DNA from: a methanogenic archaeon ISO4-H5
Lineage (GTDB): Archaea > Thermoplasmatota > Thermoplasmata > Methanomassiliicoccales > Methanomethylophilaceae
NCBI GenBank assembly: GCA_001560915.1
Contig: CP014214.1
Span: forward strand, 682,001 to 746,000
Length of the DNA: 64,000 nt
Direction of reading: 5' to 3'
Shown here: one piece after another, positions 37,152-42,707 of the stretch
How the letters are laid out: every line of letters begins with the position of its first letter
How positions within the stretch are numbered: the first letter of the stretch is position 1
Made by a program: the position numbers and the translations under genes
The notes under the pieces: model-generated
Told to the model about the DNA's origin: nothing
Seen by the model: only the letters and a program-made list of their open reading frames with translations
Database searches by the model: none

Positions 37152-37685
37152 ATGCGCAGGGCACTGGTCATCATAGACTATCAGAACGATTTCGTCACCG
37201 GCTCGTTGGGCAGCGACGACGCCAAGGTGTTGGAATCAGTTTTGCATGGTCACGTATCAGACTCTTTGGCCCGCGGAGAGGATGTCTATTTCACCATGGA
37301 CACGCACGATACCGGTTATGCTTTCACCGATGAGGGCAGGCATATCCCTGTCGCTCACTGCCTGAAAGGCACCGAAGGGTGGGAGATCTACGGTTCCCTC
37401 CGGGGGTTCTCGGAGAGATGCACAGTTCTCGAGAAAGGAACCTTCGGAAGCACCGAGCTTGCAGAGATCATCCGTGATAAGGGCTATGATGAAGTCGAGG
37501 TGTGCGGAGTCGCCACCAACATATGTGTGCTCGCCAATGCGGTGCTCATCAAGGCCTATGCACCGGAATGCAGAGTGATCGTGGACCGCCGCCATGTGGC
37601 GTCTTATGACCGTTCCCTGGGAGAATCCGCATTGAAAGTGATGGCATCCATGTGCATAGATGTGACCGGAGATGAGAACCAATGA
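37152..37685 (+). CDS. Isochorismatase-family cysteine hydrolase
   Basis: 177 aa. Fold shared by nicotinamidase, isochorismatase and related amidases. The Asp of the triad is in LVIIDYQNDF (D10 or nearby), the Lys in VLEKGTFGST (about residue 96), and the nucleophilic Cys in VEVCGVATNICVLANA (about 126). TMDTHD and HCLKGTEGW resemble the metal-site region of nicotinamidases, so NAD salvage is possible but not shown. The start ATGCGCAGGGCACTG fits the family N-terminus. Its stop overlaps the next start (ATGA), so the two are translationally coupled. Confidence 0.85.
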   Translation: MRRALVIIDYQNDFVTGSLGSDDAKVLESVLHGHVSDSLARGEDVYFTMDTHDTGYAFTDEGRHIPVAHCLKGTEGWEIYGSLRGFSERCTVLEKGTFGSTELAEIIRDKGYDEVEVCGVATNICVLANAVLIKAYAPECRVIVDRRHVASYDRSLGESALKVMASMCIDVTGDENQ

Positions 37686-37936
37686 CCGATGAGAACTACG
37701 GGAAATGCGATGTTTGCAGGTACTGCTCGCACAAAGGTGAGAACTGGGAATGCGGTCTTCACGGCAAGTCGGTCGCACCCAAGGATTCATGCGGCGCATA
37801 CCGTCCCGGATGCTGCGAGAACTGCAGCCACTGCACCGTGACCGACGGGAACGGAACCTGCGACAGGACCGGGGAGGAAGTCTTCGTGCTCGGCGTCTGC
37901 GATTTCTACGATCCCAGCGGAAGACGCACTCAGTAA
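37682..37936 (+). CDS. Small Cys-rich metal-binding-like protein
   Basis: 84 aa with 11 Cys. CDVCRYCSHKGENWECGLHGKS and CCENCSHCTVTDGNGTC look like two knuckle-type metal sites. There is no hydrophobic segment. It overlaps the hydrolase stop by 4 bp and runs 7 bp into the convergent gene at 37930. Function unknown; a zinc or iron-sulfur accessory protein is possible. Confidence 0.7.
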   Translation: MTDENYGKCDVCRYCSHKGENWECGLHGKSVAPKDSCGAYRPGCCENCSHCTVTDGNGTCDRTGEEVFVLGVCDFYDPSGRRTQ

Positions 37937-38844
37937 GTGGCAGTGCGTTCCTTCCTTCTGTCGAAGGCGTTCTTAACGCTCATCTTGGCGCCGCTGCTGC
38001 CTGCTACGGCGTTCTTGGCTGATTCCGGAACTCCGAGGTAGACGATGTTGTCGGTGACCTCCTTCATACAGGTCATGGACTTGCGGACCTCTGCGTAGGC
38101 ATCCTGCAGGGACTTCATCACGCTGTTCATGAGCTCCGTTATGGAGTACAGATTCTTGAGCATGTAATCGTCCCTGTTGACGAATCTGGGACATGCTTTG
38201 AGGAAGGGGTTGTAAGTACCGTCGCGGTAGTCGTCCTCGAGGTCGTCGACGGCATCCATGACATAGACCGCAGCGGTGAGCGAGGTGTAGAGGTCCCTCA
38301 GTGCGGGGGAATCCGCATCGCCCGCGATATCCGACAGCGGTTCGGTCAGGGCCTTCCCGAAGGTGATCCCCATCAGAACGGGGTCGGTGCAGCCCTGTGT
38401 CTCGAGTTCGCGGAGCTTCTCGAATCCCTCTCCCACGATACGGTCGTAATCGGGGAATTCCGACTCCGCTTTCGATATCGCCCTCGAAAGTGCCAGATCG
38501 ATGAATCTCGTCTTCATCGAAGGCTTGTCGACCTTGTCATCGTAGAGCTCCCATTTGGTCAGCAGGATGGTGTATGCGGCCATTCTGCGGAAGACCTCCT
38601 GATCGGTGTAGGGTTTGCGGAAAACGCACCTCCACGACTTGGGGGTGCGGTCGAACGAATCATCCCCGCCCATGACGGAATTCAGGATGATCGTGTTGAA
38701 GCACATGTCGTAGTTCACGGCAGCCGCTGATACCAGGCCGAACTGCGCCTTGAGCTGGTGGCAGGTCTCGCAGTAGTACCTCTGGTAATCAGCGAGGTTC
38801 TTGGCCGTCAGCCTCTGGTAGAGCGGGACCGTGTAGCCGAACAT
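37930..38844 (-). CDS. DUF5685-like protein
   Basis: 304 aa, mostly helical. The N-terminus FGYTVPLYQRLTAKNLADYQRYYCETCHQLKAQFGLVSA has a CxxC pair, and a later Cys lies in WRCVFRKPY. An Asp-rich stretch VMDAVDDLEDDYRDG near residue 195-210 resembles the metal-binding Asp motif of isoprenoid-synthase-fold enzymes. The assignment to DUF5685 is from memory of its N-terminal motif. Function unknown. A TATA box on the minus strand lies near 38870. It is divergent from the candidate RiPP precursor gene across 155 bp, which may or may not link the functions. Confidence 0.65.
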   Translation of the reverse strand: MFGYTVPLYQRLTAKNLADYQRYYCETCHQLKAQFGLVSAAAVNYDMCFNTIILNSVMGGDDSFDRTPKSWRCVFRKPYTDQEVFRRMAAYTILLTKWELYDDKVDKPSMKTRFIDLALSRAISKAESEFPDYDRIVGEGFEKLRELETQGCTDPVLMGITFGKALTEPLSDIAGDADSPALRDLYTSLTAAVYVMDAVDDLEDDYRDGTYNPFLKACPRFVNRDDYMLKNLYSITELMNSVMKSLQDAYAEVRKSMTCMKEVTDNIVYLGVPESAKNAVAGSSGAKMSVKNAFDRRKERTATY

Positions 38845-38940
38845 GATATGCTCTCCAATGGGCTGGCACCATATATACTGTCGCCAACGGGGGATTCTGG
38901 CATTTTCCCTTATTAGATAATCGCGGGCGAACCGACGACA

Positions 38941-38994
38941 ATTATATAGGGGGAAAACCTACCGATGCCATTAAGCCAGTATTGGCAGGGTGAG
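38941..38994 (+). promoter_or_regulatory. Promoter and ribosome binding site of the Cys-rich peptide gene
   Basis: TATA box ATTATATAG at 38941-38949. GGGTGAG at 38988-38994 lies 5 bp before the ATG and is a strong ribosome binding site, unlike many genes here that look leaderless. Confidence 0.65.
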
Positions 38995-38999
38995 TAAAG

Positions 39000-39314
39000 A
39001 TGTCACACTCCGTTGAAGATTTAATCGCATCCTACATGAGTCAGTCCCCCGTCGCTTTCGCAGCGATGGCAATCGTAACCGGCGAAGAAGAGCACGCCGT
39101 CGACAGGAACGCCGCTAAAATGGCCGATGACGAGAACGAGCACGGAGCCGTCAACGGAGATCCCGCCTGCGACTACTGCTGCTGTACCGACAGGGGTACC
39201 TGCGCCACTCCCGCACAGCACATTGCCTGCTGGGGAGGACTCGTCGTTACCTGTATCTGCTGCTGCTACTGCACCAACGGATTCGGCGGACTCTACACCT
39301 ACTGGCCCCTTTGA
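39000..39314 (+). CDS. Cys-rich precursor-like peptide (candidate RiPP precursor)
   Basis: 104 aa. Residues 1-56 are Cys-free, acidic and partly helical (VEDLIASYMSQSPVAFAAMAIV, then EEE and DDENE), like a leader. Residues 57-104 hold 11 Cys (57, 60-62, 68, 77, 85, 87-89, 91). They occur in dense groups CDYCCC and CICCCYC, and the tail GGLYTYWPL is Gly- and aromatic-rich. No signal peptide is obvious. It is followed 21 bp later by a radical SAM/SPASM enzyme, the arrangement expected for thioether-type peptides (sactipeptides, ranthipeptides). No known precursor family recognised. A metal-binding or membrane peptide is the alternative. Confidence 0.75.
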   Translation: MSHSVEDLIASYMSQSPVAFAAMAIVTGEEEHAVDRNAAKMADDENEHGAVNGDPACDYCCCTDRGTCATPAQHIACWGGLVVTCICCCYCTNGFGGLYTYWPL

Positions 39315-39335
39315 ACGGAAAGACCGGTTCTAACC

Positions 39336-40478
39336 ATGAGCCGCTTTCTGTCCGTGGTCATCAAACCCACCCTTGCCTGCAATATGGCTTGCAGGCATTG
39401 CTACCACTCCGCCGAGGAGCTTTCTTCTTCGGCGAGGATATCTTTTGAAAGACTCGAGCATCTCTTCTCCGTTGTATCCAGGGAATACGATTCCGTATGG
39501 TTCGTATGGCATGGGGGAGAACCTCTCTCGCTTCCGTTCTCTTTCTTCAAGAAGGCCATCGAACTGCAGGACAAATACTTGGGACCGAACCGCTGCGGAA
39601 ACACCATCCAGACCAACGGCATGGCCCTTGACCGTAAGATGTTGAACTTCTGCAAGGAGCATCAGATCAACATCGGGGTATCCCATGAGGGACCTTACGA
39701 CGGTGTGCTCCGCAACCATGGTGCCGAGATCGAATCGAGTCTCCGTAAGATGGTCGACAAGGAACGCGTGTTCTCTGTCAATTCCACCATCTGTAGGGAG
39801 ACCCAGGACAAGCAGGTCGAGATCTATCGCCACTTCAGGGATATGGGTTCCTCTGTCAGTCTCGTGCCCGTGCTCCCCATCGGATGCACCGCATGTCACA
39901 AGGAGCTGGTGCCCGAACCTGAGGCGTATATCAAATCGAGTATCGAGGCCTTTGATGAGTGGTTTAACGACCCTGAGACAAGGGTGCCTCTTGCCCCTCA
40001 TTTCCTTTATGTCCTGGCGGCAGCCGGTAATCCGCAGATGACCGACTGTGCCCACAGCTCCTGTCTCACCAAGTGGCTGTGCATGTACCCCAACGGCGAT
40101 CTCTACCCCTGTGCGAAGCCCTGTCCCAGCAATATGAAGCTCGGGAACATCGATGACGTGAAGTCAATATCTGATCTTTTCAGGACTCCCGGATTCGTCA
40201 ACATCCTGCAGGGTACAGTGGTCCGCAGGCAGAAGTGCCAGTCATGCGAAATCTACGATTACTGTCAGGGCGGATGCAGCATCGATGCCTACTACGAGAG
40301 CGGTATCGAGAACAACGGCGGCGATTCGTGCAGAATCTACCGCGAGGTCTTCACCCACGTGAAGAAATGCGTGGATGAGGTAATCAGCGAAAAGAAAGAC
40401 CTCTCCAACTACAACGCATTCGTCAGGGATGCGATCCTGGGCAGGCTCGTCAATCCTGCCCTGAATCCGCTTCAGTGA
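39336..40478 (+). CDS. Radical SAM/SPASM-domain enzyme, putative peptide maturase
   Basis: 380 aa. The radical SAM cluster motif is C15xxxC19xxC22 in PTLACNMACRHCYHS, followed by WHGGEPLSLPFSFF and QTNGMALD as in anSME-like enzymes. The C-terminal SPASM region carries many Cys (CLTKWLCMYPNGDLYPCAKPC ... CQSCEIYDYCQGGC ... C). That is enough for two auxiliary 4Fe-4S clusters, including the CxxCxxxxxC(x3)C pattern. Such enzymes modify peptides or proteins; anaerobic sulfatase maturases are the closest described relatives I can recall, but no sulfatase is nearby. Its partner is most likely the Cys-rich peptide just upstream. Ends flush with convergent ridA (0-bp gap). Confidence 0.88.
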   Translation: MSRFLSVVIKPTLACNMACRHCYHSAEELSSSARISFERLEHLFSVVSREYDSVWFVWHGGEPLSLPFSFFKKAIELQDKYLGPNRCGNTIQTNGMALDRKMLNFCKEHQINIGVSHEGPYDGVLRNHGAEIESSLRKMVDKERVFSVNSTICRETQDKQVEIYRHFRDMGSSVSLVPVLPIGCTACHKELVPEPEAYIKSSIEAFDEWFNDPETRVPLAPHFLYVLAAAGNPQMTDCAHSSCLTKWLCMYPNGDLYPCAKPCPSNMKLGNIDDVKSISDLFRTPGFVNILQGTVVRRQKCQSCEIYDYCQGGCSIDAYYESGIENNGGDSCRIYREVFTHVKKCVDEVISEKKDLSNYNAFVRDAILGRLVNPALNPLQ

Positions 40479-40868
40479 TCAGTTCTTTACGCCGATGGCG
40501 CTTATCATGATGCCGACATCCTTCGGGAGGGCGGCGGCAGCGATGCAGGCCCTGGCGGGGAAAGGTTCCTCGAAGCATTCCGCATAGATCCTGTTGACCT
40601 TGGGGAAGTCTTCGATGTCCTTCAGATACACCGTAACGGATACGATTCCGTTCTTCTCCACGCCTGCGGCCCTGAGGACCGCGAACACATTCTCGATGGC
40701 CTGGCGGGTCTGATCCTCAATGTTCTCGGGAACGGAACCGTCGGCAGGGTTGACAGGGATCTCTCCGGCGGTGAACACCAGGTTCCCTGCGATGATGCCC
40801 TGGGAATAGGGTCCGACTGCCATGGGTGCTTCTTCCGTATTGACTGATGTGATTTCCATTGTTATCAT
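40479..40868 (-). CDS. ridA: RidA-family imine/enamine deaminase
   Basis: 129 aa. Hydrolyses reactive 2-aminoacrylate and related imines released by PLP enzymes, protecting those enzymes. [25 protein letters not shown] is the family N-terminal signature. The carboxylate-binding Arg lies in [15 protein letters not shown], and the normal length suggests activity. Its start overlaps the metA stop by 4 bp (ATGA); a second ATG 9 bp later is possible. Its place after cysK and metA fits disposal of 2-aminoacrylate from Ser/Cys chemistry. Confidence 0.92.
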
Positions 40869-41785
40869 TCTCCGAGGGTCGAAATGTCATAGGGGGTGTT
40901 CTGATACACGTAGTAGTTCAGCCAGTTGCTGAAGATGAGGTTGGCGGTGCTCCTCCAGGTCATGATGGGGTCCAGGGACGGATCATCGTTGGGGAAGTAA
41001 TGGTCTGGCACATGGGGATTCATGCCCTTGTCCATGTCACGGTAGTACTCGTAGGACAGGGTGTTCACGTCGTATTCCATGTGGCCGGTGATGAACACTT
41101 GCCCGCTCCTCTCGCTGATGATGATACCCGGTCCTGCCTCAGCGGATTCCGCGATTATGTGCAGATGGGGGTTCATGAGGATATCCTCCGCCCTGACTTC
41201 GCTGTGGCGGGAATGGGGGAATTTGAAGACATCGTCCATACCGCGGAGCAGAGGTTCGTCGCTGACCAGCGAGCGGTGTTCGAAGATTCCGGATTTCTTG
41301 GAATCGAGAGGGTATTTCTTGATGCCGTAGTGGTAGTAGAGTCCTGCCTGAGCGCCCCAGCAGATGTGCATGGTGGTGGTCACGTGGGTCTTGGACCATT
41401 TCATGATCTCGCACAGTTCCTCCCAGTAGTCCACTTCCTCGAAAGAGATGTCCTCTACGGGGGCACCGGTGATAATCATGCCGTCCCAGTTCCTGTTCTT
41501 CACTTCGTCGAAGAGGTTGTAGAACTGGTCGAGGTACTCCTGCGACACGGTCTTGGAGGTGTGCGTCTTCATTTGAATGAGTTTCACATTGACCTGAAGG
41601 GGAGTGTTACTGAGCAGCCTCATGAGCTGGATCTCGGTCTCGACCTTGGTGGGCATCAGGTTCACCAGGAGGATGTCGAGGGGACGGATGTCCTGGTGGG
41701 TGGAACGCTCCTCACCCATCACGAAGATGTTCTCCTTCTCGAGCTGCGAGATGGCGGGAAGATCGTTCGGAACGTTTATCGGCAT
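40865..41785 (-). CDS. metA: Homoserine O-acyltransferase MetA, predicted acetyl-type
   Basis: 306 aa. Activates homoserine at its hydroxyl for methionine synthesis. The catalytic Cys is C142 (HICWGAQAG), with H235 and E237 in GHMEYD. Residue 111 is Glu (ITGAPVE), which in the Bacillus MetA family gives acetyl-CoA specificity, whereas Gly there gives succinyl-CoA. I therefore predict O-acetylhomoserine as product, although databases often name the family succinyltransferase. It lies 19 bp after cysK and overlaps ridA. Confidence 0.94.
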
Positions 41786-41804
41786 TGTATCGACTCCTCA
41801 GGAA

Positions 41805-42707
41805 TCATTCGTAGATTCCCATGCTGACGTATTTGTCTCCCCCGTCGGGGATGATGGCGACCACCTTGCTGCCGGGATGGGCGGCGGCGATCTCGATTGC
41901 CTTCGCTATGTTGCATCCTGCCGATATACCGACGAAAAGACCTTCCTCGCGGGCTGCCCTCTTCGCCATAGCGATAGCATCGTCTCCCTTGACGGTGTCG
42001 AATTCCACCAGATCCTTGAGGAGATTGCCGGGGACGAAGTTGGCTCCGATTCCCTGGATCTTGTGGGGTCCTGCTGAACCTGCGGTGACGAGTGCTGATT
42101 CGGCGGGTTCCACCGCGATGACCTTGGCGGATGAGCCAGCATCCTTGAAAGCGAGAGCGATTCCGGATACGGTCCCTCCGGTCCCGAATCCTGCTACGAC
42201 ATAATCCACATCGGGGAGGTCGGCAAGGATCTCCCTGCCGGTTCCGGTCCTGTGGGCGACGATGTTAGCGGGGTTGTCGAACTGACCCGCGATGATGGAG
42301 TTGGGGGTGTTGCGGCAGATCTCTTCGGCCTTATCGACGCTGCCTTTCATGCCCTCGGCACCGGGTGTGAGGATGATCTCCGCTCCGTAGGCCTTCATGT
42401 AGGCCTGCCTCTCCTTCGACATGGTGTCGGGCATGACCAGGATGCACTTGTAACCGCGGACCGCAGCTATCATGGCTATGGCGATGCCGGTGTTGCCGGA
42501 AGTGGGCTCAATGATGGTTCCTCCGGCGGACAGCTTGCCGGTCGCCTCGGCATCGTTGATGATGGCGAGTGCGGGGCGGTCCTTGATGGAGCCTCCGGGA
42601 TTCTTGCTGTCCAGTTTTACGAAAACCTCGGATCCTGCAGGAGACAGTTTCCTGAGCTTCACCAGAGGGGTGTTGCCGATTACCTCTGTAATGTCATTAT
42701 ATATCAT
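41805..42707 (-). CDS. cysK: Cysteine synthase (O-acetylserine sulfhydrylase family)
   Basis: 300 aa. PLP enzyme that replaces the acetyl group of O-acetylserine with sulfide. The PLP Lys is in KNPGGSIKDRPA (about residue 42). The substrate loop is EPTSGNTGIAIA and the phosphate-binding loop GFGTGGTVSGIA. Length and motifs match CysK rather than the cystathionine beta-synthase form with CBS domains. First gene of a minus-strand operon cysK-metA-ridA. Being next to a predicted acetyl-type MetA, it might also accept O-acetylhomoserine; this is inference. Confidence 0.92.
   Translation of the reverse strand: MIYNDITEVIGNTPLVKLRKLSPAGSEVFVKLDSKNPGGSIKDRPALAIINDAEATGKLSAGGTIIEPTSGNTGIAIAMIAAVRGYKCILVMPDTMSKERQAYMKAYGAEIILTPGAEGMKGSVDKAEEICRNTPNSIIAGQFDNPANIVAHRTGTGREILADLPDVDYVVAGFGTGGTVSGIALAFKDAGSSAKVIAVEPAESALVTAGSAGPHKIQGIGANFVPGNLLKDLVEFDTVKGDDAIAMAKRAAREEGLFVGISAGCNIAKAIEIAAAHPGSKVVAIIPDGGDKYVSMGIYE

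Follow-up and report, generated by a model that had tools for sequence, protein, structure and literature searches.

The peptide gene and its neighbours

The window analysed here is a stretch of 64,000 nucleotides from the genome of the methanogenic archaeon ISO4-H5 (contig CP014214.1, positions 682,001 to 746,000), and all coordinates refer to it. On the forward strand it contains a gene for a 104 amino acid peptide (39000-39314), followed after a gap of 21 bp (39315-39335) by the ATG of a 380 amino acid radical SAM/SPASM enzyme (39336-40478; PF04055, E=4e-9; TIGR04085, 40.7 bits, cut-off 27). A DUF5685 gene (PF18937, E=2e-45) encoding a putative prenyltransferase of 304 amino acids lies on the reverse strand (37930-38844). 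The peptide-enzyme unit has a TATA-like element (ATTATATA, 38941-38948, forward strand) and a Shine-Dalgarno-like sequence (AGGGTGAG, 38987-38994, forward strand) that is kept in most of the genus-mates listed. A TATA-like sequence (TATATATG, 38871-38878, reverse strand) was read by eye approximately 28 nt before the start codon of DUF5685. Scans for sigma-70-type promoters and terminators gave results at chance level. An initial annotation of this DNA had described the peptide, the 21-bp gap, the motifs of the enzyme and both expression signals, and these hold in coordinates and composition.

All 11 Cys residues of the peptide (positions 57, 60, 61, 62, 68, 77, 85, 87, 88, 89 and 91) fall within its last 48 residues, and residues 1-56 contain no Cys and carry 11 acidic and two basic residues. 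The leader motif Y12-x-x-Q15 (39033-39044, forward strand; context LxxxYxxQSPxAF) is a candidate recognition element, and both named residues are invariant in an alignment of 19 peptide sequences. Alignment and hydropathy place the Cys-string core, with its hydrophobic stretch and aromatic tail, at residues 57-104 (39168-39311, forward strand), where C57, C61, C62, C68, C88, Y90, W102 and P103 are invariant in the same alignment. A conserved core behind a variable leader had been expected; the eight invariant residues agree with the first part of this, but the leader keeps Y12 and Q15, and the variation lies between the leader motif and the core. Archaeal cores have 8-13 Cys each at varying spacing and, by hydropathy, carry a membrane-helix-like stretch. 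The aromatic tail itself (residues 90-104; 39267-39311, forward strand) has the archaeal consensus Y.T.GF.G.WTYWPF.

The peptide has no match in Pfam, and so no J domain, and no lipobox or signal peptide was seen in the archaeal system. None of the named precursor families matches it either, in line with the earlier remark that its Cys spacing fits no familiar one. The methanogen Cys-peptide family TIGR04165 (cut-off 60 bits) was ruled out, as it has no match at the locus, and the matches that it does have in the genome are at other places and score under the cut-off.

The radical SAM motif CxxxCxxC of the enzyme (C15, C19 and C22; 39378-39401, forward strand) is found in 67 of 70 orthologues, the other three mostly having gaps at the beginning of their aligned sequence. 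The SPASM or auxiliary cluster region (C238 to C332; 40047-40331, forward strand; TIGR04085 and orthologue alignment) contains the complete pattern of seven Cys, C249-x9-C259, C301xxC304x5C310x3C314 and C332. C238, C243, C259, C301, C304, C310, C314 and C332 are invariant in the 70 orthologues and C249 is kept in 60. The enzyme thus combines CxxxCxxC and a SPASM domain with a small peptide gene in conserved adjacency, as expected of a radical SAM/SPASM RiPP system, and it matches many peptide-maturase families. Judged by sequence scores, it belongs to no named radical SAM peptide family, as it stays below every curated equivalog cut-off in NCBIfam. The top scores are with DynA, a cyclophane-forming maturase, and with the anaerobic sulfatase maturases, and both cut-offs are missed; PapB (66 of 340 bits), the SCIFF maturase (60 of 425), CcpM (47 of 500) and TIGR04083 (114 bits against a cut-off of 300) also fall short. 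Alignment to 4k36 places A260 (40113-40115, forward strand) at the position of the Asp after the YPC motif, which we take to be catalytic in anaerobic sulfatase maturases. All 70 aligned orthologues have A, G or S here, and the enzyme is ruled out as an anaerobic sulfatase maturase.

Conservation of the pair

Searches of 147 genomes of the order with the window peptide gave matches in 71, of which the last three score marginally, and searches with the enzyme gave matches in 86, several of these being distant radical SAM proteins only. Upstream regions were read at 83 enzyme loci, of which 77 are true orthologues, including one (G043) where the peptide was identified by reading the sequence, and G112. 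A Cys-rich ORF lies directly upstream of the enzyme in all 77, across ten genera of one archaeal family, and this includes genera missed by the single-sequence peptide search. Pairwise identity of the enzyme among orthologues falls to about 26%, and in all five near pairs compared dN is lower than dS for the leader and the core of the peptide and for the enzyme. The adjacency at this divergence, together with the low dN, indicates that the pairing is not due to chance. A peptide profile search of 390 Thermoplasmatota genomes found it in 35 genomes, all of one family.

Two arrangements that the initial annotation named as contrary to its proposal were not encountered: no reasonably complete genome has the peptide but lacks the enzyme, and no sulfatase is among the recurrent neighbours of the enzyme. 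Its statement that there is no dedicated peptidase or exporter also stands, as none recurs in the approximately 15 kb around representative loci. Six distant radical SAM proteins (G055 C6, G067, G129, G131, G019 and G021; 22-29% identity) were treated as members of other families, and the stretches fetched around them, some of them short, contain no upstream Cys peptide and no DUF5685.

In one assembly (G043, L064) the reading frame of the peptide does not terminate ahead of the enzyme start and forms a longer ORF that overlaps it, through either a sequencing error or a real extension, and in two others (G036:C42 and G109:C2; L108 and L118) the enzyme gene is split over two frames by an assembly frameshift or by decay. 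One small genome (G030, contigs C9 and C14; L080 and L116) has two complete modules of peptide, enzyme and DUF5685. RidA-like, MetA-like acyltransferase and cysteine-synthase-like genes recur 3' of the pair (40479-42707 in the window, reverse strand) in genera g1, g6, g9, g14 and partly g8, and represent either sulfur amino-acid genes or mere synteny. Term searches of the ISO4-H5 genome paper (PMC5011839) and of a 243-genome survey of the order turned up no mention of radical SAM enzymes or bacteriocins.

DUF5685 is the third gene of the module

The unnamed peptide does have a dedicated radical SAM/SPASM enzyme, as first described, but the two are not the whole unit. DUF5685, which the initial annotation missed, is the one further gene common to all 28 neighbourhoods compared, from ten genera, and in nearly every one it is divergent from the pair. 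Its start usually precedes that of the enzyme by 365-850 bp; it lies 2-4 kb from the pair in two genomes of one genus and about 19 kb away in another genome (G100:C14), and its retention there despite the move supports functional linkage. Among the 390 Thermoplasmatota genomes, the 35 that have a DUF5685 match above cut-off are precisely those that have the peptide. Discordances between them in the search of the order are mostly incomplete assemblies, plus G015. Distances between enzymes and between DUF5685 proteins are correlated (0.92, uncorrected for the species tree). The peptide, the enzyme and DUF5685 are co-inherited and form a well supported three-gene module.

The exceptional G015 contig (G015:C12, L129) belongs to a Methanomassiliicoccales assembly with 5% contamination and carries a bacterial-type DUF5685 gene followed by a J-protein ending in ACIFCCHEGC; it is either a contaminant contig or a recent transfer. 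Thermotoga maritima, included as a control genome, has a DUF5685 gene above the cut-off. Beside DUF5685 in the window is an 84 amino acid Cys-rich ORF (37682-37936, forward strand) with paired CxxC-like, zinc-ribbon-like motifs; it matches no family and is not prominent among the recurrent neighbours.

An AF2 model of the window DUF5685 is all-helical (pLDDT 88.7) and that of a clostridial homologue is helical with a small hairpin (pLDDT 93.6). For each model all 50 PDB matches listed are prenyl-diphosphate synthases, terpene synthases, UbiA-type enzymes or prenyltransferases, mostly with probabilities near 1.00 but with TM-scores of about 0.3-0.6 and a best E-value of 0.0012; the first match of the clostridial model is the prenyltransferase MoeN5. 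The protein is therefore predicted to have an all-alpha isoprenoid-synthase fold.

Conserved motifs agree with this prediction. The first Asp-rich motif, D102-D103-x-x-D106 (38527-38541, reverse strand), is aligned by hhalign with the DDxxD of GGPP synthases, and the second, D197-x3-D201-x3-D205 (38230-38256, reverse strand), with their second motif. Both are in register with the same-order motifs of the synthases (P = 0.009 and 0.006), at an overall hhalign probability below 7%. D102 and D106 are invariant in 69 window and bacterial rows and in 67 archaeal rows, D197 and D201 are invariant and D205 is D or N, and both motifs are found in 149 of 151 DUF5685 sequences. C25-x-x-C28 (38761-38772, reverse strand) is invariant in the window and bacterial set and in the archaeal set, and a third Cys (C73) is invariant in the alignment of bacterial proteins and the window; the three could possibly form a metal site. 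The GKRxR and post-motif RR sequences, present in 12 of 12 aligned GGPP synthases, occur in only five and 13 of the 151 DUF5685 sequences, which points away from chain elongation and suggests a prenyl-transferring enzyme.

No relatives of DUF5685 beyond PF18937 were found in Pfam, PHROGs or PDB sequences. Sequence searches of solved structures with it returned either nothing or spurious helical designs, and the matches in the viral structure library were all weak and prenyltransferase-like. A phage or defence origin was rejected, with no PHROGs match for the peptide or DUF5685 and the PADLOC matches confined to weak ones between the radical SAM domain and viperin. In the open-licence literature searched, DUF5685 appears in one paper, as a domain name only, and neither the three-gene combination nor the association of DUF5685 with Cys strings turned up.

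Bacterial DUF5685 genes adjoin J-domain proteins

A DUF5685 profile scan of 84,980 species genomes found 204 relatives. The best 80 of these were examined and all are bacterial, mostly from Clostridia with a few from spirochaetes. Four loci were excluded because the sequence ends too early, and in the 76 testable loci the gene directly 3' of DUF5685 always encodes a J-domain protein, the J domain being confirmed with PF00226 on three of them. At least six Cys are found in the last 45 amino acids of 68 of the 76 J-proteins, compared with seven of 1480 other ORFs of at least 100 amino acids. DUF5685 is therefore associated with Cys strings in both archaea and bacteria, and its position beside both kinds of candidate substrate suggests a shared, undescribed Cys-string modification, perhaps with lipid.

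None of the 80 bacterial loci contains a radical SAM homologue. Only in archaea does an aromatic tail accompany the radical SAM enzyme, the last 15 residues having on average 5.9 aromatics in archaeal peptides against 1.0 in bacterial J-protein tails, and this contrast may reflect a single evolutionary event. Apart from single Cys residues, no alignment was obtained between profiles of the archaeal cores and of the bacterial tails, so the parallel between them is one of composition and position only.

Proposed function

We propose, with belief and doubt in equal parts, that the peptide is a Cys-string substrate which DUF5685 modifies, by S-prenylation as we infer, and which the archaeal radical SAM enzyme modifies additionally. 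In the peptide, Y12xxQ15 would form an N-terminal segment for recognition, joined by an acidic linker of variable sequence to the C-terminal Cys string with its hydrophobic stretch and aromatic tail, and Y12 and Q15 suggest that its leader is recognised by one or both enzymes, both of which probably act on it. DUF5685 most likely moves an isoprenoid group onto Cys thiols of the string, and the radical SAM/SPASM enzyme may in addition form either thioethers at Cys residues or a C-C crosslink within the aromatic tail. The modified peptide would be anchored at the membrane, and hydropathy and the lack of an exporter argue that the product stays there. In Clostridia and some other bacteria, DUF5685 without a radical SAM partner would modify a J-domain protein on its Cys-string tail. 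In eukaryotes, the Cys string of cysteine string protein (DNAJC5/CSPalpha) is lipidated by palmitoyltransferases for membrane anchoring, and the modified bacterial J-protein would act like this lipid-anchored protein. More tentatively, and leaning towards doubt, we suggest that DUF5685 could be the founder of a prokaryotic class of S-prenyltransferases, lipidating bacterial J-proteins and a doubly modified, membrane-bound methanogen peptide. Counting against S-prenylation are the moderate TM-scores of the fold matches (about 0.5, with E-values above 0.001), the divergent transcription of archaeal DUF5685 outside the operon of the pair and the invariant Trp of the archaeal peptides.

The initial annotation proposed thioether formation, and Cys thioethers in the peptide are possible, but nothing specific supports them, since neither of the enzyme's two top-scoring matches, to DynA and to the sulfatase maturase, clears its cut-off. 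A two-gene thioether RiPP of the ranthipeptide or sactipeptide type, in which the enzyme crosslinks Cys, the product is released and DUF5685 has some other role, would account for the Cys-rich peptide adjoining a SPASM enzyme at every orthologous locus, for the recognition-like leader and for the resemblance to peptide maturases. We consider it unlikely, as no peptidase or exporter is near the pair, no named maturase cut-off is reached, the core has been strongly conserved and not diversified, and DUF5685 has a genome distribution identical to that of the peptide. The bacterial DUF5685 loci, with their Cys-tailed J-proteins and no radical SAM enzyme, make a Cys-string modification, probably lipidation, better supported than a secreted RiPP. 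The Cys string could instead be a metal or Fe-S module that DUF5685 and the J-protein assemble and the radical SAM enzyme stabilises with a crosslink. J proteins such as HscB serve in Fe-S assembly, and the 8-13 Cys per core and the conserved Cys trio of DUF5685 would suit such a module; the diphosphate-type Asp motifs and fold of DUF5685 would then have no role, and the membrane-helix-like stretch and varying Cys spacing of the archaeal cores fit it badly, so that we give this reading little credence. Practically no weight attaches to the enzyme being an anaerobic sulfatase maturase with the peptide an unrelated neighbour. Matches to TIGR03942 (148 bits) and to anSME structures in the PDB are its basis, but that score is far below the cut-off of 349, no sulfatase recurs nearby and the peptide is at every orthologous locus.

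The other question is which residue DUF5685 would prenylate. ComQ and PalQ, which are trans-isoprenyl-synthase-like, prenylate adjacent peptides (PMC13290415, PMC10853753), and because both use Trp, the invariant Trp of the archaeal peptide remains a rival target to Cys. All characterised trans-IDS-like peptide prenyltransferases modify Trp and none Cys (PMC13290415), and W102 lies near the C-terminus, as does the Trp in PalQ substrates (PMC10853753). This reading, in which DUF5685 acts on Trp in the manner of ComQ and PalQ and not on Cys, nevertheless seems rather improbable. In 38 of 59 bacterial J-protein tails the final 35 residues are free of Trp, which leaves Cys, common to both kinds of substrate, as the shared nucleophile, and C25, C28 and the third Cys of DUF5685 could bind a thiol-activating metal.

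If S-prenylation of the Cys string is true, it would be the first function for DUF5685, and archaea and bacteria would share a Cys-string modification by a fold whose known peptide prenylation is so far confined to Trp. A conserved archaeal peptide would also be linked to the membrane biology of methane-producing gut archaea. The module offers a concrete two-enzyme system for reconstitution.

Comparison with known systems

The module comes nearest to radical SAM/SPASM RiPPs, to peptide prenyltransferases of the ComQ/PalQ type and, through the bacterial partner of DUF5685, to the cysteine string protein of eukaryotes. With CSPalpha the bacterial DUF5685 partner shares the combination of a J domain and a Cys string, but its tail lies at the extreme C-terminus and its partner has a predicted isoprenoid-synthase fold instead of being a DHHC acyltransferase. 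The archaeal peptide differs further in having no J domain, and no homology of the tails is claimed. DynA, PapB, the SCIFF maturase and TIGR04083 of methanogens have the same SPASM architecture and an adjacent small peptide; the window module is set apart from them by an enzyme below every cut-off, a DUF5685 partner and a peptide that matches no known precursor family. Archaeal Cys lipidation, with an archaeol thioether on the lipobox Cys, likewise places an isoprenoid lipid on Cys (cited in PMC13290415), but no lipobox or signal peptide was seen in the window system and its enzymes are different. In ComQ/ComX and PalQ/PalX an enzyme of isoprenoid-synthase fold with Asp-rich motifs is also encoded beside the peptide that it modifies (PMC13290415, PMC10853753), and the architecture of DUF5685 is compatible with a peptide prenyltransferase of this type. 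The comparison is by description and not by sequence. ComQ and PalQ act on Trp in quorum-sensing or NHLP-RiPP loci, whereas the module described here has a candidate Cys-string substrate and, in archaea, a radical SAM/SPASM enzyme.
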